Position numbers and translations under genes: made by a program. A DNA stretch of 36,531 bases. Source: Cytophagaceae bacterium (GTDB taxonomy: Bacteria; Bacteroidota; Bacteroidia; Cytophagales; Cytophagaceae). Where the stretch lies: contig JALONM010000043.1 in assembly GCA_025454925.1 (NCBI GenBank), positions 1 through 36,531 of the forward strand. The letters run 5' to 3'. Numbering within the stretch: position 1 is the stretch's first letter; each line of letters opens with the position of its first letter. The notes beneath the pieces were generated by a model. The model searched no databases and was not told the DNA's origin. It was given only the letters and a program-made list of their open reading frames with translations. Positions 6,212 to 36,531 of the stretch are shown piece after piece.

Positions 6212-6228
6212 ACACTGCTGGTAAGCAG

Positions 6229-6595
6229 TGGAGGTGGAGGGATTCGAACCCTCGTCCAGTCATGATAGCAAATGTATTTTCTACAAGCTTAGACTTTATT
6301 AATTTTAGTGCCTACACAGGATAAAGTCGCCCGATGTAAGCCTTAGATGCTGAGTTTCTCGTAGCCGGACAACATCATACCGACTACCAGTTTTCCTTTA
6401 CGATGCCCCGGAATCCAGCCCCGGAAAACGTGGGTCCGGCGGGACACTTGCGTATGCTAAATACCTAGATTAAGCAGCAAGGGCAAAAGAGTTCTCTTCG
6501 CCAATTATTAGTTCGAGAGTTTTGTCACGGGTAATACTCACAACACCCGGCCTGCTTACACACCCCTACACACGCTGTCAAATCCAGTCACCCCC
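6229..6595 (-). ncRNA. ssrA: Transfer-messenger RNA (tmRNA, ssrA)
   Basis: tmRNA rescues stalled ribosomes by adding a degradation tag. On the minus strand the RNA begins GGGGGTGACTGGATTTGACAG and ends with a T-arm GAGGG-TTCGAAT-CCCTC and the 3' acceptor strand CACCTCC plus discriminator A. The acceptor halves pair over 7 bp with a G3-U wobble, the alanyl-tRNA synthetase identity mark. CCA is not encoded. The tag reading frame lies at 6470-6502 and ends GEENSFALAA then TAA; the ALAA tail is the usual protease signal. The length of 367 nt is normal. Ends were set from the acceptor pairing and could be off by a base or two. Confidence 0.95.
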
Positions 6596-7871: not shown

Positions 7872-7905
7872 AAAAAAAGCAAAACCGTTTTAGGTTTTGC
7901 TTTTT
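7872..7905. terminator. Bidirectional intrinsic terminator
   Basis: AAAAAGCAAAACC at 7872-7886 pairs with GGTTTTGCTTTTT at 7893-7905 around a 6-base loop, with A-runs and T-runs on either side. It lies 27 bases after the stop of the minus-strand propeller gene and can also end transcripts coming from the left. Confidence 0.85.
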
Positions 7906-7932
7906 CATGGAGCGCTGTATGTGAAAAAAAAA

Positions 7933-11226: not shown

Positions 11227-11254
11227 ACGTAGTGAGGGGTAAAGTTGTATACAC

Positions 11255-11262
11255 CAAATTTA
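11255..11262 (-). promoter_or_regulatory. Candidate promoter of the propeller protein gene
   Basis: On the minus strand TAAATTTG matches TAnnTTTG exactly, 28 bases before the start codon. A partial -33 word (TTGA at 11282-11285) lies 19 bases further upstream, the spacing seen in the mpl promoter of this window. Confidence 0.55.
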
Positions 11263-11362
11263 AATAAATAGGAAGTGGTATTCAATCTTGTGTGTAGGGT
11301 TGTGACATCTTGAAACAAAAAATCTGCTCCTAATAAGAATGGGAGCGTAGAACAATCGGGTA

Positions 11363-11402
11363 GAAAAAAAAGCAACGGGAGCATGTTAGATCTCCCGTTG
11401 CT
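11363..11402 (-). terminator. Intrinsic terminator of the giant gene
   Basis: AGCAACGGGAG (11371-11381) pairs perfectly over 11 bp with CTCCCGTTGCT (11392-11402), loop of 10. Read on the minus strand it is followed by eight T. It starts 22 bases after the stop of the 3964-codon gene. Confidence 0.92.
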
Positions 11403-11424
11403 AATGAATGTGTGATAAGAAGGA

Positions 11425-17400: not shown

Positions 17401-20400
17401 GTCATTTCCAACTGTTAATACAGGACTTGGTGTTACTGTAATCTGCATGGTATCGCGATCCGGTAGACACAAGCCAGCATTGGTAGAAGAGGTTAAAATC
17501 AATTGAATGATTCCACTGTTACCATTGGCATCGTAGGTACTTGTCAAGCTATTGATGTCGGAAAATTTATTTCCACCAGACCATTGTGCTGTAAATGGAG
17601 TATTTACAGTACCAGCCAACTGCACCAGGCCATTGTTTCCGCAAACAATCCGGTCCGGGCCAGCATTTACTTCCGGAGCCGGGCTGAAGGTAATAATTAC
17701 TTTATCCGAATCTCCGGGGCAATCCATGTTTCCGACCGATGTAAGGGTTAAGGTAACAAATCCGCGTTGCACATCATTGGTGTCTGCATCGTAGAGGTTT
17801 CCTGCCGGGAATGCGGTGCCTGCTGTAAAACAGGTGGTACAATTCGATGAAGATTTCCAGGTGCCTGTGGCGATCGGTGAATTAGTAATAGAGCCGTTAA
17901 GTGTTGCTACATTGTTGTTGGCACAAAGCACCACATCATCTCCTGCATTCACAACAGGTTTTCTATTGATCGTTATTGTCGTTGAAACTGGCACCACACC
18001 GCAAAGGGAGTTGTCCGATTTTAACGTAAGTACAATCGAGTTGGATGTTCTATCCAAAGCAGAAGGAATGTACGTGACTGTGTTTTGAGTTGCGTTATTG
18101 AATACTGCACTTGGTGAAAAAATACCACCGGTGGTAGACTCCCAGATACCTGTTGTTACCACCCCTGTAATGGAACCTTGAATGCTGATACCCGCCGTAT
18201 TTTCACACGCATTGGCAGGAGGAGAAACAAGACTTACCGAAGGTGCTTGAGTAAAATTGATGGTAACATTATCGTTTAACGAAGGACAAAAGCCTTGAGC
18301 TGGCACGGTCATGGTAAAGACAACCGCTCCTGAAACGTTGGTACCACTTACTACAAAAGGAGCGGTAGGAGAAATGCTAACACCGGCATTGTTGGAGGTC
18401 CAGGAAACGTTGTTGGAAACATTGGTTTTGTTAAACAGTACCACCGGACTTAATGTGAAATTAGCAGGCGTGCCGCATTGGTTTTGATCCGGACCTGCAC
18501 TCAAGGATAGATTGCTAATTCCGATGCTTACCGAATCGCGCATGGGGCGACAGAATCCGTTGTTGGAAGTTTCAAAGTACAATTTTACAGCACCGGCATC
18601 CACGTCTGTCCCAGAAGGGATATAAGAAGTAGCAGGAGAGGCAGCGTTTACAAAGCTTCCGGTTCCTGCGGTTGTCCAAAATCCAGACCCTGTAGAACTG
18701 TTCGCTCCGATGCTTACACGATCCGATTGTGCTGTACATAAGTTGTTGGAACTCATGGAAAGTGTATTTCCAGGAATAATTGTATACACCACCTGGTCGC
18801 TAACTCCCGGACAGGCTCCTACGGCACCCGCAGCATACGTGAAGGTAATGCTTCCAGTACTAGGTGCTGATGGGGTAAAGGTAGGATTGAATACTGTAGT
18901 GGAACTAAAGGTTCCGGCTACACTGGCTGACCATGTTCCGGAGGCACCCGTAGCCTCTAAGGATATTGGCGGGATATCAGATAAACAAACCGTGCGATCA
19001 GGTCCAGCATTGACAACAGGGATTTGGGTAAACGTAAGGTTAACTACATCAGTAATGGATGCACAGCCTGGATTACCGGCAGCAGTAAGTCGTAATTGAA
19101 CCAAGCCATTGGTTTTATCTGTGGCGCTGATGTTGTAGGAAGTGACCGCACTGTTCACAGACGCAACAGTTCCGGTAGCCGGAGCTAAGACTGTCCAGGT
19201 GAATTGGCTTACGTTGGTGCCACTTCCATTTAAGGAAATACTATTTTGATTCGTACAAACCACCAGGTCCGGACCTGCATTTACAGTGGGGGCAGCATTA
19301 AAGCTCAAACGCATGGTATCTGATACAGGAAGACAGCCCAGTGGACCACCTGTAGAACTTAAAATAAGAAGCACACTTCCATTGCTTACATCGGCAGCTG
19401 ATGGGGTATAGGTGGTTGACAAGGCATTGGGATCTCCGAAACAAGCGTTGCAAGCACTTGTACTTGTCCATCGTTGACCATTTACCGCTTGACTAAATAA
19501 ACCGTTCAAATTGATGGAACCGGTAGAACTTTCACAAAGTTCCTGGTCTGGACCAGCACTGGCCCTGGGTGGATCCTGATAACTAATGGTAATATTGGTT
19601 TGGCTATTGACCGCGTTACAGTTTCCATTTCCGGTAGAAACGGCCCTAAGAGTAACAAAACCATTGGATAAATCCGTAATGCTTGGAATATAGGTGGCAC
19701 TTAAGCTCGTATTGTTTGGTGAAAAAGTTCCAGTCCCAGAAACCGTTTCCCAACGTATACCTGTGGCCGGAGCCTGAGGAGTAGCGCTGATCGCAGTATT
19801 TGGATTGGTTTTACAAACCTGTTGGTTATTGGAACTTGTAATGGTAACGACCGGTGATGGCGTATAGGTAATTGTCAACTGATCGGATACAGTATTACAA
19901 TTGGTTAAGGTAGAAGTTAACCTCAAAACGGTAGTGCTGTTATCTGGAGGTGTTGATGATGGAGTGAAGCTTGCATTCAGACTAGTTGGATTGGTAATGG
20001 TTCCTGCTACACCGGATACTACGGTCCATTGTACTGTTCCGGCTGAAGCGAAACCGCTTAAGGAAATATTAGAGGCATTGTTTGCACAAACCGATTGGTC
20101 GGGACCTGCATTCACAGTAGGAGAGGGCGTTACACGAATAAACATGGTATCTCTTTCTGCAGCACAGTTGTTGGTAACCATGGTCATTACAAGTCTTGCA
20201 AATCCAGCGTTGCCCTCAGCCACTGATAATGTATATTGAGGATTTACCGCACTATTGGGAGGATTAAAATTAAAAACTCCTGTGCCACCCGACCAGGTCA
20301 CTGTTCCTGGACCACTGGCGCCTGAAATAACCACGGTCTGGTTATTATCACAAACCGTTAAGTCCGGACCTGCATTTGGCTTTGGAGCATCGTCTACTAC

Positions 20401-23319: not shown

Positions 23320-23343
23320 AGTTATAGCGTATTATGGGTAAGC

Positions 23344-23351
23344 CAAATATA
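23344..23351 (-). promoter_or_regulatory. Candidate -7 element of the giant gene
   Basis: On the minus strand TATATTTG fits TAnnTTTG exactly, 24 bases before the start codon, giving a leader of about 18 nt. No -33 TTTG at the right spacing. The remaining intergenic stretch to 23560 is very AT-rich and shows a short perfect palindrome GACTATTTAGTC at 23521-23532 but no clear terminator for ribF. Confidence 0.5.
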
Positions 23352-23560
23352 AAGAATACTTATTGTATTTTTATAAGTTTTTTGATTAATTTATTAACTA
23401 TATAAAATTAAATAACACCCGTTTTGTGTTTGTTTTTCTCGGAAAATTCAGGGAAATATTAGCTAAGAGTTTGAATTTTAGATAATTGTGAATAAAGTTG
23501 AGCAATTTTAATATACCATGGACTATTTAGTCACGTAATATTTATGACAAAGTTAATACA

Positions 23561-24490
23561 CTATTGTATTTTAATCAAATCTAATGTCTGTACTTTATCA
23601 AGTATTAATTGTGATTTCAGTTCTTCCAGTCCAGAGAATTTGCGTTGATCCCTGATACGCTGAATAAAATTAATCTGTAATGATTCTCCGTAGATGTCTT
23701 TGTCAAAATTCAGCAAGTGTACTTCTATGGTTTTGTTTGTGCCATCCACCGTAGGCCTGTTTCCTATATTCATCATTCCAGCATAGTACCTGTGATCATG
23801 ATTTACCGTAACCGCGTAAACTCCATCTGCTGGAATTAATTTGTCGGGTGCCTCCGGTTGGATATTAGCGGTTGGGAATCCAAGGGTGCGGCCGATCTGT
23901 TTTCCTTTTACAACAAGACCTTTTAATGAATACGGCCTTCCTAACAACAATGAGGCCTGATGAACTTCTCCCGCGTTCAAATAAGTTCGAATTTGTGTAG
24001 AACTGATCGCAAATTCATCCAACGATTGTTGCGTGATTTCTTCTACCTCAAATCCCATACGATTACTTTCTTGCTTTAGCAGATCATAATTTCCCTTTCG
24101 ATCTTTACCAAAACGATGATCGTATCCGATAATGATTTTTTTTGTCTGGAGGGTATTTACCAGTATTTCAGAAATAAATGTGAGCGGATCTAATTCAGAA
24201 AATTCACGTGTAAACGGAGTTATTATTATCCTGTCTAGTCCAAGTGCCTCAAGTGATTCGCATTTCTCAGATAAAGAGGTCAACAATGCTGGGACAGGTA
24301 GTTCACCAGCTATTACTTTGCGAGGATGCGGCCAGAAGGTGAGAACAGCGGCATGAATGCCTAACCTCTGGGATTCCGCAATTACCCTTCGAATAATTTT
24401 CTGATGAGCCAGATGAACTCCATCAAACGTTCCTATTGTTACAACACAAGCCTGTTTGTTCAATTCTTCCAGGCCATGGTAAATTTCCAT
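23561..24490 (-). CDS. ribF: Bifunctional riboflavin kinase / FAD synthetase
   Basis: RibF phosphorylates riboflavin to FMN and adenylates FMN to FAD in the cytoplasm. The 309 residues are the usual length. The N-terminal nucleotidyltransferase domain shows TIGTFDGVHLAHQ (18-30), GYDHRFGKD (122-130) and SSTQIR (163-168). The C-terminal kinase domain shows the GRPY start (184) and GFPTAN (204-209). It is the last gene of the apparent operon mpl, exonuclease, CAP/OmpA-like protein, ribF, and starts 11 bases after the preceding stop. No FMN riboswitch is seen in front of it. Confidence 0.96.
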   Translation of the reverse strand: MEIYHGLEELNKQACVVTIGTFDGVHLAHQKIIRRVIAESQRLGIHAAVLTFWPHPRKVIAGELPVPALLTSLSEKCESLEALGLDRIIITPFTREFSELDPLTFISEILVNTLQTKKIIIGYDHRFGKDRKGNYDLLKQESNRMGFEVEEITQQSLDEFAISSTQIRTYLNAGEVHQASLLLGRPYSLKGLVVKGKQIGRTLGFPTANIQPEAPDKLIPADGVYAVTVNHDHRYYAGMMNIGNRPTVDGTNKTIEVHLLNFDKDIYGESLQINFIQRIRDQRKFSGLEELKSQLILDKVQTLDLIKIQ

Positions 24491-24501
24491 CCTTCAGGCT
24501 C

Positions 24502-26910
24502 TTAATTCTGAATCAAACAACTTTCGCAATAATACTTTTTAATGCTTTCGTCTTTAAATAACTGAAAGCGAATTTTACCATTTCCATAAAGAGTGCAGAA
24601 CCTGGCTTTGTTCATCTCTCTGGCTTTTTTCATGTTTTCTACTACATGGTATTTGGAGTAATGATCCGGATCGGCCAAAGTCAAACTTAAAAAATAAAAC
24701 AACATATCCTCCGTGAAGTCACCACTCTCAATAGAAGGATTCAATACTTCAATGGCGTAGTCCTCTCTTCCGTGGTAAGCAAAATAATTCGAGATGCCTA
24801 ATACATCGTTTTGTGAAGCATCGATCGTTTTATAGTATTTTTTTACTTGAGCCAACGATTCATCCCGGTATTTATATTTATTATTTTTTCTGTAAAAATC
24901 ACTTACCAAAATGTAGTAATTCAAATACAACTGATTTACTAATTTCTTATCTACCTTGGTAGAGAACAATGCTTTGATATTTTTAATTATAGGATCAGGA
25001 TTGCTTACCTTGATGGTGGAATCCGCCCATCCTTTGAGTGTTAAGCTTAGAGCATTGAATTTAATGAAAGCATTGGAAGGGTCTAGCAAGGACGCATCTT
25101 CTAAGGCTTTCACATAATCCATATTAAATTTTTGATGATAACGGAATACAATTTCATTGTTGATCATCTGCGCAAATTCTTTAGTTCTGGGAATTGGCGC
25201 GGCATCCAATGCGTATATACCTAGTTCTCCTCCGGTAATGGCTTCAAACAAGGCTGTTTGTAAGAGAGGAGCATTGGCATAATCTTTTTTTACAATCGCT
25301 GCTTTAAGCAAATTAATAAAATCCTGACGGTTTTGTGTCAGGTCTATTTTCTCTACCACTTTCAGAGTGATTACCGCCTTACGCTCTTTTCTCAGGTAAG
25401 GTTCCAACGCTATCAATAAAGAATCACTTTGAAGTTTTTCCTTAACAACATTTTTTTCCAGTGTAGTTAAATAGGCGTATGAAGTATTCTTAATATCTCT
25501 GTTAAACTGTGCCCAGTTTTCCATGGTGCGGATATTGGTTTTGATTGAATCAAACTGAAAAGCTTGAATGGCATTGACAATACTTTGGGCTCGAAGCTTC
25601 TGAAGTTCCAGGTTTTTTTCAATTGTACCTTCAACGGAAGAATAGGCAACAATATTAAGGTCTTTAATATTAAAGCGATTCAAGTTTAAGGAATCGTAAA
25701 ATGGTTTGATGTCCTCTTCATTGAACTCTGTTTTTCCTTTTTCAAAAGGAATGATAAACGTCAAACTTTTCTTTTTAAGGATTTCACTTTTAGTAAGGGT
25801 ATCGGTGAATAAGTCGGTTTCAATAATATTGGGCTTGTGCTCCGCTTTAGGTGTATTGATCAGGTATTTACACAAGGTGTTATCTTTTATCAGCAACAAA
25901 CTCAATTCATATTCTCCGGGATTGTTGTAAGGATTATCTCCCAGGTAGGTGTAAATTTGGTTTTGATCTTTTCGTTTGTTGTTTTTTAAGATATCCCCTT
26001 TCAGGAGAGGCTTAAATAAAATACCATCGTGGACAGGAGAACGGTGCAGCGAGTTCCCACTGGCGCAAGGAAATTGTTCAACATGAACAATGTCTACGGC
26101 CAAGGCCTCATCTCCATCAGGAAAGATTTTTTCAAAAAGAGTTAAATCAGAAAACTGAAAGAATATTTTATTGCCTTCTGTTACTATCCCCCAGGTAATA
26201 TAATCGGGTATGTTCGAAAAGCGTTCATTGCATTTTGTGCATTTTTTTTCGTCGAACGCCGTTAATCCATATGCGTTATCAATGTTTAGTTTTTTAGAAG
26301 GATAAAACTGTTTGCGATTATCCTTGTGTTTCACGGAATGATGGAATCGGAATCCCTTAGAACCAAACACCGCAACGGCATAAATATATTTGCGCTCTTC
26401 ATTGACAGCAAAAGATATTCCCCAGGTGTACCATTCTGGTTTGATAAACAATTCCAGGTGTTCTTTTGAGGCTATATTGTTTTGGAAGAAGAAGTCAGCC
26501 GCATCCTGGTAAGTAAGTAGTTTTATGGTTTCTGTTTGTTTGTAGATTCGGGTAGGCTGATCGATATGTATTTTCTCAATAAGTTCATCCAGTTTTTCCT
26601 GGGTTCCTTTAAACGTTTCCACGCGTTTTTCTAAAGTAGCGTAGGCAGGCTCAGGTTGCAGATGCGACTCAATGTTATCGGTTTTACGAACGAACAATGC
26701 ATGGTTCTTGGCAGCCAACGTAAGAATGGAGTCGCGCCGTATGGCATACAAGCCCAGAGAATCGCGCAGCTTTCCTATTTTCTCTTCAATCAATTGTTCG
26801 AGTAAAGAAGATTTAAATGATTTTAAATCAATTTTGTCGCTTGCTGATTGAGCACAGAGTTTCGTAGAAATGAAACCAATTAAAAAAATCCACCAAAACT
26901 TCGTTTTCAT
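24502..26910 (-). CDS. Exported protein with CAP-like, OmpA-like and helical (TPR-like) regions
   Basis: The 802-residue protein has a signal peptide (KFWWIFLIGFISTKLCAQ). Residues 35-185 resemble a CAP/SCP domain: IEEKIGKLRDSLGL, then LTLAAKNHALFVRKTDNIESH, and a later WGISFAVNEERKYIYAVAVFG. About 380-460 resemble an OmpA-like peptidoglycan-binding domain (FEKGKTEFNEEDIKPFYDSL, VAYSSVEGT, KLRAQSIVNAI). The rest, about 540-760, is helical and TPR-like. There are CxxC pairs at KKCTKC and at the C-terminal YYCESC. A periplasmic or outer-membrane protein that touches the cell wall is likely; the exact role is unknown. It is flanked by the exonuclease gene (16 bases) and ribF (11 bases), so it is co-transcribed with housekeeping genes. 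Domain calls are by pattern; the OmpA-like match is moderately clear, the CAP match weaker. Confidence 0.72.
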   Translation of the reverse strand: MKTKFWWIFLIGFISTKLCAQSASDKIDLKSFKSSLLEQLIEEKIGKLRDSLGLYAIRRDSILTLAAKNHALFVRKTDNIESHLQPEPAYATLEKRVETFKGTQEKLDELIEKIHIDQPTRIYKQTETIKLLTYQDAADFFFQNNIASKEHLELFIKPEWYTWGISFAVNEERKYIYAVAVFGSKGFRFHHSVKHKDNRKQFYPSKKLNIDNAYGLTAFDEKKCTKCNERFSNIPDYITWGIVTEGNKIFFQFSDLTLFEKIFPDGDEALAVDIVHVEQFPCASGNSLHRSPVHDGILFKPLLKGDILKNNKRKDQNQIYTYLGDNPYNNPGEYELSLLLIKDNTLCKYLINTPKAEHKPNIIETDLFTDTLTKSEILKKKSLTFIIPFEKGKTEFNEEDIKPFYDSLNLNRFNIKDLNIVAYSSVEGTIEKNLELQKLRAQSIVNAIQAFQFDSIKTNIRTMENWAQFNRDIKNTSYAYLTTLEKNVVKEKLQSDSLLIALEPYLRKERKAVITLKVVEKIDLTQNRQDFINLLKAAIVKKDYANAPLLQTALFEAITGGELGIYALDAAPIPRTKEFAQMINNEIVFRYHQKFNMDYVKALEDASLLDPSNAFIKFNALSLTLKGWADSTIKVSNPDPIIKNIKALFSTKVDKKLVNQLYLNYYILVSDFYRKNNKYKYRDESLAQVKKYYKTIDASQNDVLGISNYFAYHGREDYAIEVLNPSIESGDFTEDMLFYFLSLTLADPDHYSKYHVVENMKKAREMNKARFCTLYGNGKIRFQLFKDESIKKYYCESCLIQN

Positions 26911-26926
26911 AGTTCCCTTTTTCTCC

Positions 26927-27730
26927 TTATTTCTTCAGTTGAGCCAATTTAATTTCTGTTAATTTTCGCTTGGTATCAATAGCAAAATCACCATTCATCA
27001 TCCAATCGTAATAGGCTGGATCTTTCTTAAATACATCTTGCACGGCTTGTCCTTTGTATTTTCCGAAATTAAAAATGATAACACTTTTATCATTTAAAAT
27101 CATTCTTCCGGCAATATCAACCATGTTTCCTACACACAACTGATGCAAGGCTTGGATATCGTTTTTAACCGGCACGCTTTCTTTGCCTGAATGGTCTTTG
27201 ATACTTTTCCCATCGTAGCGTTCCAATTGAGCCATCAATACTTCGTAAGTGGCGAATGCATCTGCTTCGGCACGATGGGCATTTTCCATTTCTTTCTGAC
27301 AATAGAATTTGTATGCGGCTGAAAGGGTGCGCGGTTCCATTAAATGGAATATTTTCTGCGCATCCACAATACGACGGTTGCTGAGGTCAAATTGAATATT
27401 CACCCGGTTGAATTCTTCCATTAACAGCGGTATGTCTAGCTTCATGGGATTGTAACCTCCCAAATCGCATCCTTGCAAAAACTGATTGAGGGTATGAGCA
27501 ATCTTATCAAACGTAGGAGCCTCTGCAACCTGTTCGTTGGTAATTCCGTGTATTTTTACAATTTCCTCCGGAATCGGAATGCCCGGATTTATCAGAAACG
27601 ATTTTCGAATGACTTCCTGGTTGGGCATTACTTTTACTAAGCCGATCTCCACAATCTTGTCGGAGGAGATGTTCATGCCGGTTGCTTCAATATCAAAAAA
27701 TACGAGCGGCTTATGTAGCTGCAAGGCCAT
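26927..27730 (-). CDS. 3'-5' exonuclease of the DnaQ (DEDDh) superfamily
   Basis: The 267-residue protein has all DEDDh acidic residues: D13 and E15 in FFDIEATG, D99 in YNPMKLDIPLL, H152 in NAHRAEAD and D157. It should degrade DNA or RNA from the 3' end with two metal ions. After the nuclease domain there is a small C-terminal module (about 218-250) with FGKYKGQ and DPAYYDWMMNGDF, resembling the C-terminal extension of exodeoxyribonuclease X-like proteins. It is not the replicative proofreader by context; a repair or processing role is more likely. It lies second in the mpl operon, 64 bases after the mpl stop. Confidence 0.88.
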   Translation of the reverse strand: MALQLHKPLVFFDIEATGMNISSDKIVEIGLVKVMPNQEVIRKSFLINPGIPIPEEIVKIHGITNEQVAEAPTFDKIAHTLNQFLQGCDLGGYNPMKLDIPLLMEEFNRVNIQFDLSNRRIVDAQKIFHLMEPRTLSAAYKFYCQKEMENAHRAEADAFATYEVLMAQLERYDGKSIKDHSGKESVPVKNDIQALHQLCVGNMVDIAGRMILNDKSVIIFNFGKYKGQAVQDVFKKDPAYYDWMMNGDFAIDTKRKLTEIKLAQLKK

Positions 27731-27794
27731 AGGTGTTTTGTTTGTTGTTTATGTTGCTTGAAGCGAAGGAATTCCCTTCCCTTTCATGGTAGCA

Positions 27795-29171
27795 TTAATC
27801 TTCTACTAATTCCTTCGCCAGTGCTTTGAGGTCTATGCCCCCAAAGTTGCCTGAACTCATGAGTAATAAATTTTTGCCATTCCAATCAATGTTTTTCAGG
27901 TAGTTTTCTAGATCTGCAGAACTAGTAAACACATGAAGGTTATCACAGGCAAATGCCTCTGTTACATCCTTATTATTAATCTCCTGAAGTTTTTTATGCT
28001 TTATGGTTTCCGGATTAAAATACACCACAGGTACATCGGCAGATTTAAAACAATCTTTGTATTGCACCAGGAATTCTTTTGTCAGGCTGCTGAAGGTGTG
28101 TAATTCAAGTACCGCTACCAGGTCTTTTCGTTCGTACTGCTTTTTTACTGCATTGGTAGTTGCCTTTACTTTAGAAGGAGCGTGCGCAAAGTCTTTAAAG
28201 ATGATGGTCGAATAATTTTTATTTAAGACTTCAAGGCGGTTAGCGGCTCCCTTGAATGTGCGAATGGCCTGATAAAACATTTCGTCGGTGATACCCAATT
28301 TGGAGCAAACCAATTTAGCACCAGAAATATTACGCATATTATGTTTACCAAATATTTGCAAAGGAACTCTGCCGAATTCCGATGTTAAATACGTAGTGCC
28401 ATCGATAATTTCATGTTTATGAGCTGGATATTCAATGCTGGTAACATCGTCTCGCTCCTTTTCACAAATATACTCGGCCAAATCATCATTATCGGAATAT
28501 AATAAAATGCTTCCTTTGGGCGACGCATCGGCAAAAGCTTCAAATTGCTTTACATATTCTTCAAAGGTAGGATACACATTTATATGATCCCAGGCTATAC
28601 CGCTGATAAGTCCGATGTGATGTTTGTAATGTAGGAACTTCGGTGTACGGTCCAGGGGAGATGCAAAATATTCATCTCCTTCGATAACAATAACAGGGGC
28701 ATCGCTCAGCTTTACCATGGTATCAAAACCTTCCAACTGGGCACCTACCATGTAGTCAAACTCTCTCTGGTGGAATTTCAGTACGTGCAGGATCATGGAG
28801 GTAATGGATGTTTTTCCATGGGAACCTGCAATCACTACGCGTTGTTTGTTTTCGGATTGCTTGTATAAATATTCAGGATAGGAATAAATAGGTAAGCCCA
28901 ATTCCTGTGCTTTCAGCAGTTCCGGATTGTCGATGCGGGCATGCATTCCCAAAATAACGGCGGAAAGGTCTTTGTTTATTTTCTCCGGGAACCAGCCTAT
29001 CTGCTCTGGTAACAAACCAGCCTTGGCCAGGCGGGAGCGGGAGGGTTCATTTATTTCATCGTCTGATCCTGTAACGTGAAATCCTTGTTGATGCAATGCC
29101 AGCGCCAAATTGTGCATAGCACTTCCACCGATGGCTATAAAATGAACGCGTTTAGTATTCTCCTGACTCAT
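27795..29171 (-). CDS. mpl: UDP-N-acetylmuramate:L-alanyl-gamma-D-glutamyl-meso-diaminopimelate ligase (Mpl)
   Basis: Mpl joins recycled murein tripeptide to UDP-MurNAc, returning it to peptidoglycan synthesis. The 458 residues show the Mur ligase layout: an N-terminal Rossmann part with HFIAIGGSAMHNLALAL, the ATP loop GSHGKTS at 116-122, the central IEGDEYF and AWDHINVYPTFEEY, and a C-terminal FKDFAHAPSKVKAT. The words GSAM and GMHARIDNPEL distinguish Mpl from MurC, whose start is GIGGIGMS. First gene of the minus-strand operon, with a complete consensus promoter in front. It diverges from dnaB. Confidence 0.93.
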   Translation of the reverse strand: MSQENTKRVHFIAIGGSAMHNLALALHQQGFHVTGSDDEINEPSRSRLAKAGLLPEQIGWFPEKINKDLSAVILGMHARIDNPELLKAQELGLPIYSYPEYLYKQSENKQRVVIAGSHGKTSITSMILHVLKFHQREFDYMVGAQLEGFDTMVKLSDAPVIVIEGDEYFASPLDRTPKFLHYKHHIGLISGIAWDHINVYPTFEEYVKQFEAFADASPKGSILLYSDNDDLAEYICEKERDDVTSIEYPAHKHEIIDGTTYLTSEFGRVPLQIFGKHNMRNISGAKLVCSKLGITDEMFYQAIRTFKGAANRLEVLNKNYSTIIFKDFAHAPSKVKATTNAVKKQYERKDLVAVLELHTFSSLTKEFLVQYKDCFKSADVPVVYFNPETIKHKKLQEINNKDVTEAFACDNLHVFTSSADLENYLKNIDWNGKNLLLMSSGNFGGIDLKALAKELVED

Positions 29172-29203
29172 TTATTTCTTGGACTATCTTTATTTTGGGT
29201 AAA

Positions 29204-29234
29204 CAAATTTATAAGAAAATTGCGGTTCGTCAAA
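29204..29234 (-). promoter_or_regulatory. Promoter of the mpl operon (full Bacteroidota consensus)
   Basis: On the minus strand TTTG (29231-29234), a spacer of 19 bases, then TAAATTTG (29204-29211). This matches TTTG-N19-TAnnTTTG exactly. Transcription would begin near 29199 and give a leader of about 28 nt to the ATG at 29171. It is the best promoter match in the window. Confidence 0.78.
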
Positions 29235-29298
29235 TCCTCTCGCTCAATCTTCAAATTCCTGCAATCGTAGTGGGCTTCACAGTAAAAAAAAGCAGATG

Positions 29299-29307
29299 TT
29301 ATCCACA
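29299..29307 (+). promoter_or_regulatory. DnaA box 1, TTATCCACA
   Basis: Exact match to the TTATNCACA consensus bound by DnaA, on the + strand in the mpl-dnaB divergent intergenic region. Its partner lies about 100 bases to the right in the opposite orientation. Confidence 0.65.
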
Positions 29308-29398
29308 TTTAAATACCGAAGATTGTATCCTGCTTGATTTTGTAGTAAATTAAGAGTAATGTCCTTTCCTCATGGATTACAGGAAGGATGTTGGTGTA

Positions 29399-29407
29399 TG
29401 TGTATAA
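29399..29407 (-). promoter_or_regulatory. DnaA box 2, TTATACACA
   Basis: Exact match to TTATNCACA on the minus strand (TGTGTATAA on +), 75 bases before the dnaB start. An AT-rich stretch (TATAAAAACGTTTATAA) overlaps it. Confidence 0.62.
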
Positions 29408-29469
29408 AAACGTTTATAACCTGTTAAAACATAGGTGAGCGTGGAACGTCACCCGACACGTGGGAGAAT

Positions 29470-29477
29470 TAAATTTG
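29470..29477 (+). promoter_or_regulatory. -7-like element touching the dnaB start
   Basis: TAAATTTG fits TAnnTTTG exactly but lies only four bases before the ATG at 29482, and there is no -33 TTTG 19 bases upstream. If used, it would give a leaderless mRNA or force use of the ATG at 29551. It may be a chance match. Confidence 0.3.
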
Positions 29478-29481
29478 TGGG

Positions 29482-31035
29482 ATGGAATCGAAAAAGCCTG
29501 GTACAAAATCGTCATTATTAAAACCAAAATTTACTAATCCTGTAGATCTGATGGGGAAACTCCCACCTCAGGCGTTGGATTTGGAAGAAGCTGTATTAGG
29601 CGCTTTGATGCTGGAAAGAGATGCGCTCACCTCTGTGATCGAAATATTAAAACCCGAAAGTTTTTATAAAGAAGCACATCAGCTTATCTACAGAGCGGTA
29701 ATTGAATTGTTTGACCGATCAGAACCTATTGATCTTCTAACGGTAGCCAATCACCTGAGATCCAAAGGCGAATTAGAAGTAGTGGGTGGCGCGTATTATA
29801 TTACTCAACTGACAACAAAGGTCAATTCCAGCGCTAATATTGAGTTTCACGCCCGGATTGTCGCAGAACAAGCCATTAAACGCGATCTGATTTCGATTGC
29901 ATCTACCGTGCAACGCGATGCTTTTGAAGATACTTCCGATGTGTTTGAATTATTGGACCGCACCGAGCAGGCGCTTTATAATGTTTCCGAGAGTAATATC
30001 AAGAAAAATTATGCGGATATGCGCTCCCTCATGGGAGAGGCCCTGCGGGAATTGCAAGCTAAAAAAGATCACGACAGCCATCTTACTGGGACTCCAAGTG
30101 GTTTTACCGATTTGGATCGCATCACTTCCGGATGGCAGAAAAGTGATTTGGTTATTGTCGCAGCCCGACCTGGTATGGGTAAAACTGCTTTTGTAGTATC
30201 TGCCATGCGCAATGCAGCGGTAGATTTTAAAAAGGGAGTTGCCATCTTCTCTCTGGAGATGTCCTCTGTGCAGTTGGTAAACCGTTTAATTTCTGCCGAA
30301 GCAGAATTGTCTTCTGAAAAAATTAAAAAAGGAAACCTGGAAGAATACGAATGGGCTCAGTTACACCATAAAATTTCTGCACTCACCAATGCTCCTATCT
30401 TCATTGATGATACCCCTGCGATTTCCATTCGTGAGTTGAGAACGAAATGCCGTCGATTGAAAGCAAAAAATGATATTCAGTTGGTTATCATTGACTATTT
30501 GCAATTGATGAGCAGTGAAGGCAATGCAAAGGGCGGCGCGGGGAATCGTGAGCAGGAGATTTCTGCCATTTCCAGATCCCTTAAGCAATTGGCAAAAGAA
30601 TTGAACGTACCTGTGATTGCCCTCTCTCAGTTGAGCCGTAGCGTGGAGACTCGAGGTGGAGATAAACGACCTCAACTTTCTGACTTACGTGAATCGGGTG
30701 CTATTGAGCAAGATGCCGACATGGTGGTGTTTTTATATAGACCTGAATATTACAAAATTGATGTCGATGAAAACGGTAATTCGACAAAAGGTATGGGAGA
30801 GGTCATCATTGCCAAGCACCGTAATGGTAGTTTGGAAAGTGTTTGGCTTCGATTCATCGGTCAATATACCAAGTTCTGCGATCTCGACCGTCCTGATTTC
30901 GGATCTTCCGGAGGTGATGCTTTCGATCAATTTGATTCCTCTTCCAAAACCGTAGGAAGCAAGATGAATAATTTCACCAATAATTTTGATTCAAATTTTG
31001 GTTCTGGTGGTGGTGATGATAAGGCTCCATTCTAA
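29482..31035 (+). CDS. dnaB: Replicative DNA helicase DnaB
   Basis: DnaB is the hexameric helicase that unwinds DNA at the replication fork. The 517 residues have the N-terminal primase-interaction domain (KLPPQALDLEEAVLGALML near 25-43), a linker, and the RecA-like motor: Walker A ARPGMGKTAF (lysine near 232), Walker B LVIIDYLQLM (near 334-343), and the arginine-finger area with SQLSRSVETR and LRESGAIEQDAD. The C-terminus is an Asn/Gly/Phe-rich tail (NFTNNFDSNFGSGGGDD), typical of Bacteroidota DnaB. A start at 29482 gives the short N-terminal extension usual in this phylum; ATG 29551 is a possible alternative. No intein is present. Confidence 0.97.
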   Translation: MESKKPGTKSSLLKPKFTNPVDLMGKLPPQALDLEEAVLGALMLERDALTSVIEILKPESFYKEAHQLIYRAVIELFDRSEPIDLLTVANHLRSKGELEVVGGAYYITQLTTKVNSSANIEFHARIVAEQAIKRDLISIASTVQRDAFEDTSDVFELLDRTEQALYNVSESNIKKNYADMRSLMGEALRELQAKKDHDSHLTGTPSGFTDLDRITSGWQKSDLVIVAARPGMGKTAFVVSAMRNAAVDFKKGVAIFSLEMSSVQLVNRLISAEAELSSEKIKKGNLEEYEWAQLHHKISALTNAPIFIDDTPAISIRELRTKCRRLKAKNDIQLVIIDYLQLMSSEGNAKGGAGNREQEISAISRSLKQLAKELNVPVIALSQLSRSVETRGGDKRPQLSDLRESGAIEQDADMVVFLYRPEYYKIDVDENGNSTKGMGEVIIAKHRNGSLESVWLRFIGQYTKFCDLDRPDFGSSGGDAFDQFDSSSKTVGSKMNNFTNNFDSNFGSGGGDDKAPF

Positions 31036-31068
31036 AAGACAAAACTGCTTATTTCTCAGGTAAATGAT

Positions 31069-31076
31069 TACCTTTG
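31069..31076 (+). promoter_or_regulatory. Candidate promoter of the flippase gene
   Basis: TACCTTTG fits TAnnTTTG and is followed by C, a common form in Bacteroidota. It lies 21 bases before the ATG at 31098, giving a leader of about 17 nt. The -33 word is weak. Confidence 0.55.
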
Positions 31077-31097
31077 CCCCTCAGAAAAATGTAGTTC

Positions 31098-32597
31098 ATG
31101 GGGATCATAATTCGTCAGAGCTTTAAAGGTACCATCGTTAGTTTTACAGGCGCTTTCCTGGGTGCTGTGAATATGCTTTGGGTGAGTCCCAAATTCCTAA
31201 GCCCTTCTGAAATTGGAACAATTTCCTTTCTGGAAAGTGCAGCCACTAGTTTGATGAGCATAGGCTCTCTCGGTATCATTTATATTTCTGACCGTTATTT
31301 TCCTCAGTTTAAAACGGAAGATCATAAACATGCAGGTTTCCCAACATTCCTTCTTGCTTATTTATTTTTAGGCTTTTTGTTTACCAGTCTGGTTTACCTG
31401 CTTGGTCAATCATATTTCATGTCGTTCTACGAAGGGAAAAGATTAGCGGTCGATTATGTTTCGTACTTTATTCCGGTACTGTTTTTCTTTTTGTTGTTCA
31501 TGGCCTTGCTGGAAACTTTTTCCCGTGCATATTTCAGGATAGTAGTCCCTTCCTTTAATCGGGAGGTATTGCTGCGTCTCCTGGGAATCATACTCGTATT
31601 GGCTTACGCCTGGTGGACGTTTGATTTTACTTCTTTTCTGGTCTTTCGTATCGCCATGTATGCCCTTGCCACATTGGTTCTGTTTTTTTATCTTAAAAAT
31701 CTGAAGATGAAATTTACATGGCCGGATTTTTCAATCTTAACCAAAGAAAAAATACTTCCCATGATCAAGTATGGTTTAATTATCATGATCGGTGGTATCG
31801 CATCTGTTCTAATTATCAAAATTGATGCTTTGTTAATCCCTGCTTTTTTGGATGTTAACATGTTGGGCATTTATTCTATTTCATTTTTTATTGGTGGTAT
31901 TCTGGAGATACCACGTAAATCCATCGCCCAGATTAGTATCCCAGTGATTTCGAAAGCTTGGAATGAGCAAGATTTTTCAACGTTGAGTCTGGTTTATAAA
32001 AAGTCGGCATTAAATCAAATGATCGTTGGAGCCTGGATATTTATGGGCATTTGGTTTAATGTAGATTCGATTTTTACCATCATGCCCAATGGAAGCGAAT
32101 ACCAGGCTGGAAAATATGTGATCTTTTGGATTGCCTTGGCACGCCTGGTTGACATGGCAACCGGTGTGAATAATGAAATTATTTTGCAATCGAAATATTT
32201 TACCTTTAATCTGTTGGTGGGTGTTTTTTTGGCAATAATAAATGTAGGTGCGAATGTACTCCTTATTCCGGTATGGGGTATTACCGGAGCTGCAATATCG
32301 ATTTTTGTTTCCTTTACCTTATTCAATCTGGTGCGGTTTATTTTTATCTGGAAAAAATTAGGAATGCAGCCTTTTGACAAATCCAACCTGTACATTTGTT
32401 TGCTGGTGCTTGCTTGTGCTGGCATCAATGAATTATTGCCAACCATGTCCCATTACCTGGTTGATGTGGTCTTGCGATCGGTGATTGTTTCCGTGCTATT
32501 TATTGGTAGTATTCTTTATTTCCGAATTTCTCCGGATTTGAATCAATTAACAATCGTACTTTATCAAAAGATTTTTTCATTTAGGATTAAAAAATAA
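31098..32597 (+). CDS. Polysaccharide flippase (Wzx/MVF-like, MOP superfamily)
   Basis: The 499-residue protein is a multi-span membrane protein with 12-14 hydrophobic helices, for example SFTGAFLGAVNMLWV near the start and MIKYGLIIMIGGIASVLII near the middle. The N-terminal word KGTIVSFTGAFLGAVN and the later PRKSIAQISIPVISKAW fit polysaccharide biosynthesis flippases that move lipid-linked sugar units across the inner membrane. The substrate cannot be told. The next genes are a methyltransferase and a glycosyltransferase, in keeping with surface-glycan assembly. Confidence 0.87.
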   Translation: MGIIIRQSFKGTIVSFTGAFLGAVNMLWVSPKFLSPSEIGTISFLESAATSLMSIGSLGIIYISDRYFPQFKTEDHKHAGFPTFLLAYLFLGFLFTSLVYLLGQSYFMSFYEGKRLAVDYVSYFIPVLFFFLLFMALLETFSRAYFRIVVPSFNREVLLRLLGIILVLAYAWWTFDFTSFLVFRIAMYALATLVLFFYLKNLKMKFTWPDFSILTKEKILPMIKYGLIIMIGGIASVLIIKIDALLIPAFLDVNMLGIYSISFFIGGILEIPRKSIAQISIPVISKAWNEQDFSTLSLVYKKSALNQMIVGAWIFMGIWFNVDSIFTIMPNGSEYQAGKYVIFWIALARLVDMATGVNNEIILQSKYFTFNLLVGVFLAIINVGANVLLIPVWGITGAAISIFVSFTLFNLVRFIFIWKKLGMQPFDKSNLYICLLVLACAGINELLPTMSHYLVDVVLRSVIVSVLFIGSILYFRISPDLNQLTIVLYQKIFSFRIKK

Positions 32598-32620
32598 GTG
32601 ATTGGGTTCAGTAGAATAGC

Positions 32621-32628
32621 TACTTTTG
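32621..32628 (+). promoter_or_regulatory. Candidate promoter of the methyltransferase-glycosyltransferase pair
   Basis: TACTTTTG fits TAnnTTTG, 23 bases before the GTG start at 32652. A TTGGG word at 32602 could serve as -33 but the spacing (16) is short. Confidence 0.45.
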
Positions 32629-32651
32629 TTTAAACGAAACTTTGCTTTAAC

Positions 32652-33359
32652 GTGAGTACGACCATAAAAGAACGTGAAGAAGGTCATGAACGGTTATATC
32701 CGAATTGGCTCAATCCACGATATTATTATTTAACTCAATTGCGCAAGCAGTTGGAATCGGTGACTAATGGATTCATTCGTTCAGGTTCTGCCAAAACGCT
32801 GGCAGATTTTGGGTGTGGTAATTCACCTTATGAGTCGCTTATTCTTCCTCATGTAAAAAAATATTACAAAATAGATTTAGAAGAAAATCCCAGGGCGGAG
32901 ATCCATATTAAACCCACTGGTGCCATTGCCATGGAGGATAACACGGTAGACGCGGTGCTATCCACGCAGGTATTGGAACATGTACCAGATCCGGTGTTAT
33001 ACCTTTCCGAAAGCAAGCGCATATTAAAATCCGATGGAATATTAATTCTTTCTACCCATGGTTATTGGATGTACCATCCAGACCCTACAGATTATTGGCG
33101 TTGGACTTCCAGTGGTCTAAAAAAAGTAGTAGAGCAGCAGGGTTTTGAAGTTATTTATTTCAAGGGCATCATCGGTAGGGCAGCCATGGGCCTGCAGTTG
33201 TTTCAAGATGGATTCTTATTTAAAATTCCTGCGTTTTTAAAACCTGTTCTGGCCCTCTTCATGCAGCCATTGATAGCTCTTATGGATAAGACTACTTCTC
33301 AACAAAGTAAAAATTCCGATGCTTGTACGTTTGTATTAGTTGCTAAAATAAAAAAATGA
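32652..33359 (+). CDS. Class I SAM-dependent methyltransferase
   Basis: The 235-residue protein shows a Rossmann-type methyltransferase: motif I LADFGCGNSPYE (50-61), an acidic end of strand 2 (KIDLEENPRAE), a motif IV-like AVLSTQVLEHVPDP, and LKSDGILILSTHG. The type resembles Methyltransf_11 proteins of polysaccharide and lipid pathways. The start is GTG; the frame has no earlier or nearby in-frame ATG. It overlaps the next gene by four bases (ATGA), so the two work together. The substrate, probably a sugar or lipid-linked sugar, is inferred from context only. Confidence 0.87.
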   Translation: MSTTIKEREEGHERLYPNWLNPRYYYLTQLRKQLESVTNGFIRSGSAKTLADFGCGNSPYESLILPHVKKYYKIDLEENPRAEIHIKPTGAIAMEDNTVDAVLSTQVLEHVPDPVLYLSESKRILKSDGILILSTHGYWMYHPDPTDYWRWTSSGLKKVVEQQGFEVIYFKGIIGRAAMGLQLFQDGFLFKIPAFLKPVLALFMQPLIALMDKTTSQQSKNSDACTFVLVAKIKK

Positions 33360-34456
33360 ATCGTTACTGCATCGCGTATCCCAATCAAGGGAATTATTCG
33401 GAGACTTTCATTTACAATCAGCTCAGATATCTTGCTCCTGAATATACATTAACCGGAGGTTGGAGACCTTTTAAAACAGAAAAGAATACCTCCATTATTT
33501 CCTTGCCTTTAGGTGAACCTATACGGATTGCCATCAAGCGAATGGCTAGCTCCTGGTATCCTTCATTCTTCAATCATTACCTATTATCACACCTACGAAA
33601 GATTGCGCCGACCGCTGTGCTAGCACAATATGGCGTGACCGGCGTAATGGTTTTAAACGCTTGCAAGGAATCAAATATTCCGTTGATTGTGCACTTCCAT
33701 GGATTTGATGCTTCGGATGCTGTTACGTTAAAAAAATATGCTCAGGATTATCAGGAAATGTTTTCGTATGCCCGCAGCCTGGTGGCTGTATCCAACGATA
33801 TGAAACGGCAATTGCTAAGACTGGGGGCTCCGGAACACAAAATCAAACTGATACCTTATGGGGTGGATACAACTTTTTTTAATGGGGCTCATCCTGAAAC
33901 TTCAGAAAAAAATATTTTAGCAGTAGGACGATTTACCGGAAAGAAAGCGCCACATCTAACGATTAAAGCTTTTAAAAAAGTCAGCCAGCATCATCCCGAA
34001 GCCAGGTTGATTATGATTGGATCTGGAGAAATGCAGGAGTACTGCGAACAATTAATACAAGAATTAGAACTTACTGAAAAGGTTCAATTGGTGGGAGTGT
34101 TGGACAAGGAAGGTATTCGCACATGGATGTATAAAAGTCGAATGTTTGTTCAGCATTCTATGGTGAATCCTGAAAATGGAGATTCGGAAGGTACGCCCAA
34201 TACCATTTTGGAAGCCAGTGCTTGTGGTTTGCCTATTGTAAGTACGCGCCATGCAGGCATTAAAGACGCCGTCAATCATAACCATACCGGATTTTTATCG
34301 GAAGAAGGTGATTGGGAAAATATGGCCTTGCATATGGATCGTTTGCTTACGGACGCTGATTTGGCCGCCACCATGGGCAAAGCTGCCAGAGAAAAAATGC
34401 TCCTGGAATACGAATTGCCGAATCAAATTGAAAAGTTAAAAGCATTGTTGATTTAA
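33356..34456 (+). CDS. Glycosyltransferase family 4 (GT-B fold)
   Basis: The 366-residue protein has the GT4 pattern: an N-terminal acceptor domain with YPNQGNYSETFI and IVHFHGFDASD, then a donor domain starting ILAVGRFTGKKAPHLTIKAF, and the E-x7-E motif E278 to E286 in SEGTPNTILEASACGLP. It should transfer a sugar from a nucleotide donor to a glycan in the cytoplasm. It is coupled to the methyltransferase by an ATGA overlap. It is a solid family call; donor and acceptor are unknown. Confidence 0.93.
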   Translation: MNRYCIAYPNQGNYSETFIYNQLRYLAPEYTLTGGWRPFKTEKNTSIISLPLGEPIRIAIKRMASSWYPSFFNHYLLSHLRKIAPTAVLAQYGVTGVMVLNACKESNIPLIVHFHGFDASDAVTLKKYAQDYQEMFSYARSLVAVSNDMKRQLLRLGAPEHKIKLIPYGVDTTFFNGAHPETSEKNILAVGRFTGKKAPHLTIKAFKKVSQHHPEARLIMIGSGEMQEYCEQLIQELELTEKVQLVGVLDKEGIRTWMYKSRMFVQHSMVNPENGDSEGTPNTILEASACGLPIVSTRHAGIKDAVNHNHTGFLSEEGDWENMALHMDRLLTDADLAATMGKAAREKMLLEYELPNQIEKLKALLI

Positions 34457-34630
34457 TTTTAATCTCCTCAGACTGCTATTCTATGGCAGAATAAGTGGCT
34501 TTATTATTTTTAGTAGAGCCATCGAAATCTTTCAAATGGGTGACTTCTTTGTTTTCTTTTTCGAATATTCACTGACTTAATCCAAGAAATTTATTTTTTT
34601 ATTTCAGATTAAATACTTGTAAGTGTTTAA

Positions 34631-34653
34631 TTATTAGCGTTTTGTGCTAATAA
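34631..34653. promoter_or_regulatory. Perfect inverted repeat upstream of the glycoside hydrolase gene
   Basis: TTATTAGC (34631-34638) and GCTAATAA (34646-34653) are perfectly inverted with a 7-base loop, 57 bases before the next start codon. It has no U-run on either side, so an operator or mRNA hairpin is as likely as a terminator. The rest of 34457-34710 is AT-rich with no gene seen; a near -7 word CATAATTTG lies at about 34688. Confidence 0.5.
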
Positions 34654-34710
34654 ATATTTATGTTACTTATCGAAGGTTTCATTGTACATAATTTGAAAAC
34701 CCAAATATGT

Positions 34711-36531
34711 ATGAGACCGAACAAGATGAACCCAGGAAAATTTGGTGCTAGGGGAGGCTGGAGTATAGTATTCTCCGTTTCCCTATTGTTTTTGCTGCTA
34801 GGTGCCCAGGCACAAAACAGAATTACGATGCCTAATGGACAGCAGATTTTTATGAGTGGAATGAATATTGCCTGGCAGGACTTTGCCAACGATGTGGGTG
34901 ATACTCCAATAAATGCTCAGCAGTGGGCCACTATTTTAGACAATGTTAAAAATGCAGGTGGAAATACCATTCGATGGTGGCTTTATACCAATGCTTCCAG
35001 AGCACCTAAATTTACTAATGGTCTGGTTTCAGGCCTGGGGACACAATCGGTTAATAATATCCGCACCGTGCTGGATTTGGCACAAGAAAGAAACATGGTA
35101 GTTATTCTATGTTTATTCTCTTTTGATTTATTGCAAAATGGTCAGTACATGATCAATGTAAACAATAATTATCGCATGCTAACCACCGATGAAGGTATGA
35201 TGGCATGTATTGATAATTGTATCGTTCCCACTGTCACCCAGATCGGATTGCATCCTGCGATTGCCTGTTGGGAAATTTTTAATGAACCGGAAGGGATGTT
35301 GCAAAATGGAGGTTGGACGAGTGTGCGTTTATCTTCCCGTTACTATTATCAACGTTTTATTAATCGCGCCGCTGGAGCCATTCACAGAGCGGTGCCTGGC
35401 GTTCTGGTTTCAAGCGGTGCCAAACATTTTCAGTCAATGTCCAATGTTTCTGGCTGGTGGAATTATTATTCCGATCAGGAACTTCGTAATGCCGGTCAGG
35501 ACAACGACGGCTATCTTGATTTCTACATGGATCATTACTACGATAACGAAGGAGCGCCAGGAACACAACATTCTCCTTTTCATCATAATCCCGCCTATTG
35601 GGGCTTGGATAAACCCATTGTGGTTGCTGAGTTTGCTGCCAGAGGTTACAACGGAAATTTTCAAATGAGTGGAGAGGAGTGTTTTCGTCAAGTGTACAAC
35701 CGGGGATATGCCGGAGCCTTAAGCTGGACGTATACCAACCATGATGGTTTTGGTGGATTGGCGGAATCAACACCTGGATTGACTTGGGTAAAAAATAATT
35801 CAGGTAATGCTTTGGTGTACGATGCCCAGCCTGAGCCGAACTTCGGAACGAATATCGCATTAAATAAACCTGTTACGGTTTCCTCTACGGAAGCTAATTC
35901 TGTCAATGTGGCCAATCTGGTGAACGATGGTAACCGGACTACCCGTTGGGCAAGTGCCTATGCCAATAACCAAACCTTGGTAATTGATTTGGGGGCATTT
36001 TACTCTATTCAAAATATGATCATCCGTTGGGAAGCGGCTTATGGATCCGCTTACACAGTTCAGTTTTCTAACGACAATCAAACCTGGACAACCGCAAGAA
36101 CTATTACCAATGGCGATGGAGGAAGAGATATACTTCAGAATCTTACCGGAACAGGTCGATACATACGCCTGCAGCTTACCACACGAGCCACTCAATGGGG
36201 ATTCTCGATCTATGAAGTTGAAGCCTATGGCACACTGCTTACATGTTCAGCTGCCATTACGGCATCGGGATCAACTACTATTTGTCAAGGACAATCATTA
36301 ACCTTGTCAGCATCGACCGGAAGTTCCTATGCATGGTTTTTGGGAACTACTGCCCTGGGCACAACACAATCAATTACCGTTACTACAGCAGGTTCTTACA
36401 CTGTGCGCGTAACGGCTTCCAACGGATGTTCGGCTACTTCAGCGGCTACAGCGGTTACTGTAAATACCTTGCCTGCTGCGAATATTACCGCTGCAACCGC
36501 CACAACTTTTTGTTCGGGAGGCAGTGTGGTG
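34711..36531 (+). CDS. Secreted glycoside hydrolase (GH5-like, clan A) with discoidin and Ig-like domains, partial
   Basis: The frame opens at ATG 34711 and is still open at the window end (607 codons seen). A signal peptide covers about 1-36 (SIVFSVSLLFLLLGAQAQ). Residues 40-375 form a TIM-barrel hydrolase: WEIFNEPEG puts the acid/base at E192, and KPIVVAEFAAR puts the nucleophile at E307, the clan GH-A pattern of GH5-type mannanases and cellulases. A discoidin (F5/8 type C, CBM32-like) domain follows at about 380-507 (NIALNKPVTVSS, WASAYANNQTLVIDLG, YIRLQL, YEVEAYG). Then come Ig/PKD-like repeats with paired Cys (TICQGQSLTLSAS), so a T9SS sorting domain is expected beyond the window. It likely cuts a beta-linked polysaccharide outside the cell. 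Specificity is not visible. Confidence 0.9.
   Translation, partial: MRPNKMNPGKFGARGGWSIVFSVSLLFLLLGAQAQNRITMPNGQQIFMSGMNIAWQDFANDVGDTPINAQQWATILDNVKNAGGNTIRWWLYTNASRAPKFTNGLVSGLGTQSVNNIRTVLDLAQERNMVVILCLFSFDLLQNGQYMINVNNNYRMLTTDEGMMACIDNCIVPTVTQIGLHPAIACWEIFNEPEGMLQNGGWTSVRLSSRYYYQRFINRAAGAIHRAVPGVLVSSGAKHFQSMSNVSGWWNYYSDQELRNAGQDNDGYLDFYMDHYYDNEGAPGTQHSPFHHNPAYWGLDKPIVVAEFAARGYNGNFQMSGEECFRQVYNRGYAGALSWTYTNHDGFGGLAESTPGLTWVKNNSGNALVYDAQPEPNFGTNIALNKPVTVSSTEANSVNVANLVNDGNRTTRWASAYANNQTLVIDLGAFYSIQNMIIRWEAAYGSAYTVQFSNDNQTWTTARTITNGDGGRDILQNLTGTGRYIRLQLTTRATQWGFSIYEVEAYGTLLTCSAAITASGSTTICQGQSLTLSASTGSSYAWFLGTTALGTTQSITVTTAGSYTVRVTASNGCSATSAATAVTVNTLPAANITAATATTFCSGGSVV

Follow-up and report, generated by a model that had tools for sequence, protein, structure and literature searches.

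A conserved DnaA-box motif upstream of dnaB suggests that DnaA controls the replicative helicase gene in a Cytophagaceae bacterium and its relatives

The gap between the divergent genes mpl and dnaB is probably a regulatory region of both, in which DnaA, bound to boxes at 29399 and 29411, would activate dnaB, a reading to which we give a probability of about 0.8. Comparison of related loci revealed a motif upstream of dnaB, its position, its conservation, a tandem spacing of its sites and the promoter element that they precede. The DNA analysed (the window, 36,531 nucleotides) makes up all of contig C26 in a draft genome of 4.52 Mb (4,523,365 bases in 135 contigs), and the features of the gap are listed in Table 1.

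The initial annotation had pointed to two exact DnaA boxes in a 310-bp intergenic region between genes named mpl and dnaB. Both boxes were located in the sequence, the distance from the mpl start to the dnaB ATG is indeed 310 bp, and the Pfam domains agree with both gene names. The leftward and rightward gene orientations on the two sides of the gap hold for the long ORFs, the final 2 kb of the contig being ambiguous, and a divergent mpl match was found by tblastn upstream of dnaB in 18 out of 18 family loci (L016-L033). The chance rate of one exact box in 33 kb was also borne out, with 138 exact TTATNCACA sites in the 4,523,365 bases of the genome. Given that the reversed control pattern occurs almost as often (130 sites), two boxes alone prove little. 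The window has four exact boxes against 1.77 expected (at least four in 5 of 100 shuffles), and simple arithmetic on the 138 sites gives approximately 0.4 chance pairs within 100 bp over the whole genome. Therefore the pair, which had been called notable, is real and suggestive, but falls short of decisive; further close box groups lie on C5, C19, C64 and C74, among the 100 of the 138 sites that were listed. Elsewhere in the window there is a tmRNA gene at 6226-6595 on the minus strand (Rfam), and positions 112-4400 on the plus strand resemble, by eye from the translations, a pair of type I restriction-modification genes for the specificity subunit and the restriction subunit.

Table 1. Genes, DnaA boxes and predicted promoter elements in and around the mpl-dnaB gap (window positions)
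Feature	Position	Strand	Basis or remark
mpl-like Mur ligase gene, divergent neighbour of dnaB	27795..29171	-	ORF; Pfam Mur_ligase, Mur_ligase_M, Mur_ligase_C
mpl -7 element TAAATTTG (predicted)	29204..29211	-	consensus TAnnTTTG as in parts of PMC6847099 and PMC7366714
mpl -33 element TTTG (predicted)	29231..29234	-	19 nt from mpl -7 element
Exact DnaA-box sequence TTATCCACA	29299..29307	+	~90 nt upstream of mpl -7 element
Conserved DnaA box TTATACACA (predicted)	29399..29407	-	83 nt before dnaB ATG
Weak second box TTATAAACG	29411..29419	-	one mismatch to TTATNMACA; 12 bp from box 29399, same strand
dnaB -7 element TAAATTTG (predicted)	29470..29477	+	4 nt before ATG
dnaB, replicative helicase, 517 aa	29482..31035	+	ORF; Pfam DnaB, DnaB_C; start backed by relatives' N-termini

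The upstream regions of dnaB were compared in 19 family loci from 10 genera, in which the start codon was supported by similar N-termini. A MAFFT alignment of these regions left the boxes apart, so it was excluded from the counts and positions were counted from the ATG. An unbiased count of all spaced motifs of the form 4+gap+3 over 160 bp upstream of dnaB, made with no prior, ranked TTAT-N2-ACA first: 8 of 10 genera have it, where shuffles predict 0.72. The form TTATN[A/C]ACA (TTATNMACA), to which box 29399 belongs, occurs within 160 bp in 13 of the 19 loci, always on the strand opposite dnaB, and in 12 of these 13 the site lies 71-94 nt before the ATG. The exception, L029, has TTATNMACA only at -149, with a form carrying two mismatches to it, TTACCCACA, at -83; in genera g5 and g10 (6 of the 19 loci) only degenerate forms were found, with no TTATNMACA within 160 bp. 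Position 6 of the dnaB sites is often A (TTATNAACA) where the canonical TTATNCACA has C. As background, TTATNMACA was counted in 18 of 218, 12 of 232 and 8 of 72 promoters of three genomes, the last sample being biased upward because it includes stretches fetched for box pairs, and the samples from G005 and G012 containing dnaB itself and gene starts set by a simple ORF rule. The mpl-dnaB gap ranges from 144 to 310 bp in the 12 motif-bearing loci with an mpl match, while the distance of the site to dnaB hardly changes, indicating that the conserved site goes with dnaB; three g5 loci without the motif have gaps of 618-729 bp. As for the two boxes of the annotation, conservation in relatives holds for the one at 29399, but not for the one at 29299, for which an exact counterpart near dnaB was found in none of the relatives examined.

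The motif extends beyond the family. A second set of 80 named Bacteroidota loci, not sorted by family membership, left 73 usable loci after exclusion of L194 and L196 (genomes already used), four loci without an ATG and one near-duplicate. TTATNMACA was present in 37 of these 73 loci, where 200 shuffles gave 2.4 loci on average and 7 at most, and TTAT-N2-ACA ranked second in the unbiased count, after an overlapping form of the same site. The motif occurred in 7 of 10 loci adjoining mpl and in 30 of 63 in which no mpl was found nearby. A sample from the same order comprised 29 loci in which a start was found, several of these starts being uncertain, and only 4 of these loci had the motif within 200 bp; 3 of 20 loci, for lack of a start, and six genomes with a split dnaB were left out of this count. 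Thus a conserved box at a defined place, as in a DnaA-regulated promoter, was found in 8 of 10 family genera and 37 of 73 further loci, with the same-order sample at 4 of 29. In G053 no TTATNMACA was detected within 400 bp of the start of the DnaB match. The dnaB matches of G021, G034, G038, G047, G048 and G053 are split by long inserts with open frames of 841-1274 aa, which are probably inteins in the helicase.

The promoters of the two genes share one element and differ in another. Bacteroidota sigma-ABfr promoters consist of TTTG and TAnnTTTG elements, according to sections of PMC6847099 and PMC7366714. Of 15 family loci tested, 10 have the pair TTTG-N19-TAnnTTTG upstream of mpl, and in the window the promoters of both genes resemble this type, that of mpl in having the pair and that of dnaB in its TAnnTTTG -7 element. 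Upstream of dnaB, TAnnTTTG ends 3-8 nt before the ATG in all 19 family loci. For comparison, 571 gene starts from three genomes, dnaB among them and those of G005 and G012 set by the simple ORF rule, yielded 13 elements so placed. In the wider set, 42 of the 73 loci have the same layout near the dnaB ATG. The dnaB promoter departs from the sigma-ABfr type in having no TTG upstream (18 of 19 family loci lack one 16-23 nt before the -7 element) and in having the start codon at the predicted start site. Given that transcription starts 4-5 nt after the -7 element in Flavobacterium johnsoniae, as stated in part of PMC6847099, the dnaB mRNA is predicted to be leaderless, beginning at or next to the A of the ATG (29482). 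Such mRNAs are a minority in two other Bacteroidota species: about 3.7% of 5' UTRs are under 10 nt in Bacteroides thetaiotaomicron, and leaderless or near-leaderless mRNAs make up 5.5% in Flavobacterium psychrophilum (sections of PMC7366714 and PMC9723704, respectively). The missing -33 element of dnaB is weakly consistent with an activated promoter. It was dropped as proof of activation, since F. johnsoniae promoters also show little -33 element in the portion of PMC6847099 that describes them and none was found at any of the 13 leaderless-type elements among the 571 gene starts.

The minus-strand sites cluster near -46, -57/58, -67, -79/81 and -90 from the -7 element, that is, in steps of about 11 bp, with two sites at -72, one at -107 and two farther away falling outside these clusters. 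A phasing simulation reproduced this arrangement in 0 of 5000 runs for 21 of 23 sites (the two most distant were left out) and gave 0.015 on distinct positions alone, the loci sharing ancestry. Second sites on the same strand were found in 21 of 264 tests at 11-12 bp, while the other offsets gave 28 of 3869; a pair made up of two full sites counts twice in these numbers. Both this spacing count and the site-position count left out ten near-duplicates, and each also left out one of two loci from the same genome, L194 in the former and L019 in the latter. A spacing of 11-12 bp on the same strand fits head-to-tail DnaA, as in the oriC of Escherichia coli. A tandem arrangement that would allow DnaA oligomers is enriched across dnaB promoters; the second site of the window carries one mismatch.

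A count over 59 genomes gave 49 tandem TTATNMACA pairs with gaps of 2-3 bp, where the reversed control pattern gave 4; A and C types are combined in 16 of these 49 pairs. Within the family there are 6 such pairs in 19 genomes, against 2 for the control, and none in the genome of the window. All three genomes of genus g8 examined have a tandem pair TTATCAACA-GTT-TTATNMACA away from dnaB (G007:C19:16400, G016:C93:25641 and G012:C1:1868432). In G053, a cluster of 23 TTATNMACA boxes of both types lies near 2.059 Mb, close to a sampled turn of the skew from negative to positive, the skew of this genome being noisy elsewhere. Because A and C types are mixed in tandem pairs and occur together in this array, TTATNAACA is probably a DnaA box in these bacteria. 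The same box type is found at candidate origins of the lineage, in 7 of 9 genera at inferred family candidates (none in g2 and g4) and in the origin-like array of G053. We infer from the sites and their spacing that DnaA is the likely binder of the conserved dnaB site, and these data suggest TTATN[A/C]ACA as a working definition of the DnaA box for these bacteria. Autoregulation of DnaA was considered as well and set aside, only one of seven genomes having a TTATNNACA site within 300 bp upstream of the chosen dnaA start.

The regulation that we propose is as follows. The gap would serve both mpl and dnaB, and DnaA would bind the box at 29399-29407 together with its weak partner at 29411-29419, 12 bp apart. 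On the minus strand it would form a short oligomer arranged head to tail, some 80 bp ahead of the dnaB -7 element. Bound DnaA would act on RNA polymerase at a -7 promoter with no recognisable -33 element, from which the mRNA would start at the A of the ATG, and would thereby raise the supply of helicase around initiation. We infer activation, as well as this timing, from the place of the site upstream of the promoter and from the seemingly helically phased distances in other Bacteroidota; the sign of the control is a guess based on position. Control of dnaB by DnaA had been offered in the initial annotation as the alternative to an origin, and the comparison supports it well, with the motif of box 29399 at a near-constant distance from the gene.

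One alternative, which overlaps our main reading and to which we would assign perhaps a quarter of the probability, is that DnaA represses dnaB, or that the site chiefly serves to titrate DnaA or to act on mpl. The sequence does not reveal the sign of control, and in the genome of the window the second exact box lies upstream of the mpl promoter. Against these possibilities, the conserved site is located upstream of the -7 element and does not overlap it, keeps a near-constant distance from dnaB but not from mpl, and is also present where mpl is undetected next door. Less probable, and in our view unlikely, is that the motif upstream of dnaB is read by a transcription factor other than DnaA that recognises TTATN[A/C]ACA. 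In its favour, the dnaB sites are frequently TTATNAACA and not TTATNCACA, and a partly palindromic motif, AGTT-N3-AAC, is also enriched in the wider set; but both box types occur in the G053 array and in the mixed tandem pairs, the A type TTATTAACA is present at origin candidates of genera g3 and g8 (among the inferred family candidates, at these only), and the same-strand spacing of 11-12 bp fits head-to-tail DnaA. That both boxes are chance matches is highly improbable: TTATNCACA is genome-wide about as common as its reversed control and box 29299, not found in relatives, may be due to chance, but for box 29399 the counts over family genera and over the wider set, each far above its shuffled expectation, contradict it.

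The annotation had proposed that the gap itself is a replication origin, which is very unlikely given the position of dnaB in relatives and the absent skew change. Like a bacterial oriC, the gap contains DnaA boxes, and in favour of an origin there are two exact boxes 100 bp apart, divergent gene directions and a box count no worse than that of a candidate on C27 of the same genome (one TTATNMACA in 400 bp, with no clear skew change). However, only one of the two boxes is conserved, and the plus-strand GC skew is positive on either side of the gap, +0.070 at 7901-23400 and +0.064 at 29482-36531, passing near zero (-0.012) in the 5.8 kb immediately to the left (23401-29171). The skew had been called weak from hand counts; it is indeed weak, and no lasting sign change was seen at the gap in 5-kb bins of the window.

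The genome itself being a draft, the place of dnaB relative to the skew minimum was read from two family genomes in a single contig. In G005 (5.115 Mb) the sampled skew reaches its minimum in the bin that begins at 500 kb and peaks at approximately 3.1-3.3 Mb, and dnaB is at 2.796 Mb; in G012 (4.433 Mb) the minimum falls in the bin that begins at 4.038 Mb and the maximum near 1.6-1.8 Mb, and dnaB is at 1.573 Mb. In both genomes the distance from the skew minimum to dnaB is about nine tenths of that to the opposite pole, which places dnaB towards the maximum and not at the minimum as in an oriC, and its distance to the box-rich stretch near the minimum is about 2.28 of 2.56 Mb in G005 and 1.95 of 2.22 Mb in G012.

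Origin candidates were found elsewhere. In G005, four exact boxes within 325 bp, compared with two in the 310 bp of the gap, lie behind a gene for an Ig-like lipoprotein roughly 12 kb away from the skew minimum. The orthologue of this gene in G012 lies about 15 kb from the minimum and is directly followed by ten one-mismatch boxes, and a smaller group, with one exact box, lies right at the minimum. The Ig-like lipoprotein gene is present in 18 of the 19 family genomes. In the genome of the window it is on C27, and the 900 bp downstream of it, from 19808 (L155), contain one exact box and three with one mismatch. The skew on C27 is -0.005 to the left and -0.029 to the right; as this is no clear change, the stretch downstream of the gene is a candidate origin by gene order in relatives. 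The work thus suggests a family-wide origin candidate based on gene order.

Four exact DnaA boxes were also found on C74, at 130480-130723 (L009 8481-8724), between mraZ and an HU-like gene. As the origin of the genome this cluster is disfavoured, given that the skew is negative on both sides of it and that in G005 and G012 mraZ is hundreds of kb off the skew minimum. The motif TTAT-N1-CAC was found upstream of mraZ more often than by chance (7 of 8 family genera, 0.38 expected), so mraZ is perhaps under DnaA control too, and the C74 boxes may mark a second DnaA-linked promoter.

A precedent is found in Caulobacter crescentus, where dnaB belongs to the DnaA regulon and has predicted DnaA boxes upstream (Hottes et al. 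2005, as summarised in part of the review PMC8203912). Predicted boxes upstream of dnaB are common to both systems. They differ in phylum and in promoter type, and here the control of dnaB is predicted from sequence. The window and other Bacteroidota are also set apart from Caulobacter by the tandem spacing of 11-12 bp, the relaxed box TTATN[A/C]ACA and the near-fixed distance from a leaderless-type TAnnTTTG. In a literature search that covered mostly papers outside subscription, no report of DnaA control of dnaB in Bacteroidota was found.

It is conceivable, although we put it at somewhat below even odds, that in much of Bacteroidota DnaA directly activates dnaB through a short, helically phased array of boxes at a leaderless promoter. 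If so, the dnaB promoter and the origin would have the relaxed box TTATN[A/C]ACA in common, and a feed-forward loop would result, through which the initiator would itself secure its helicase for each round of initiation. DnaA would then help to set the supply of the replicative helicase across much of a large phylum, as has been reported in Caulobacter.
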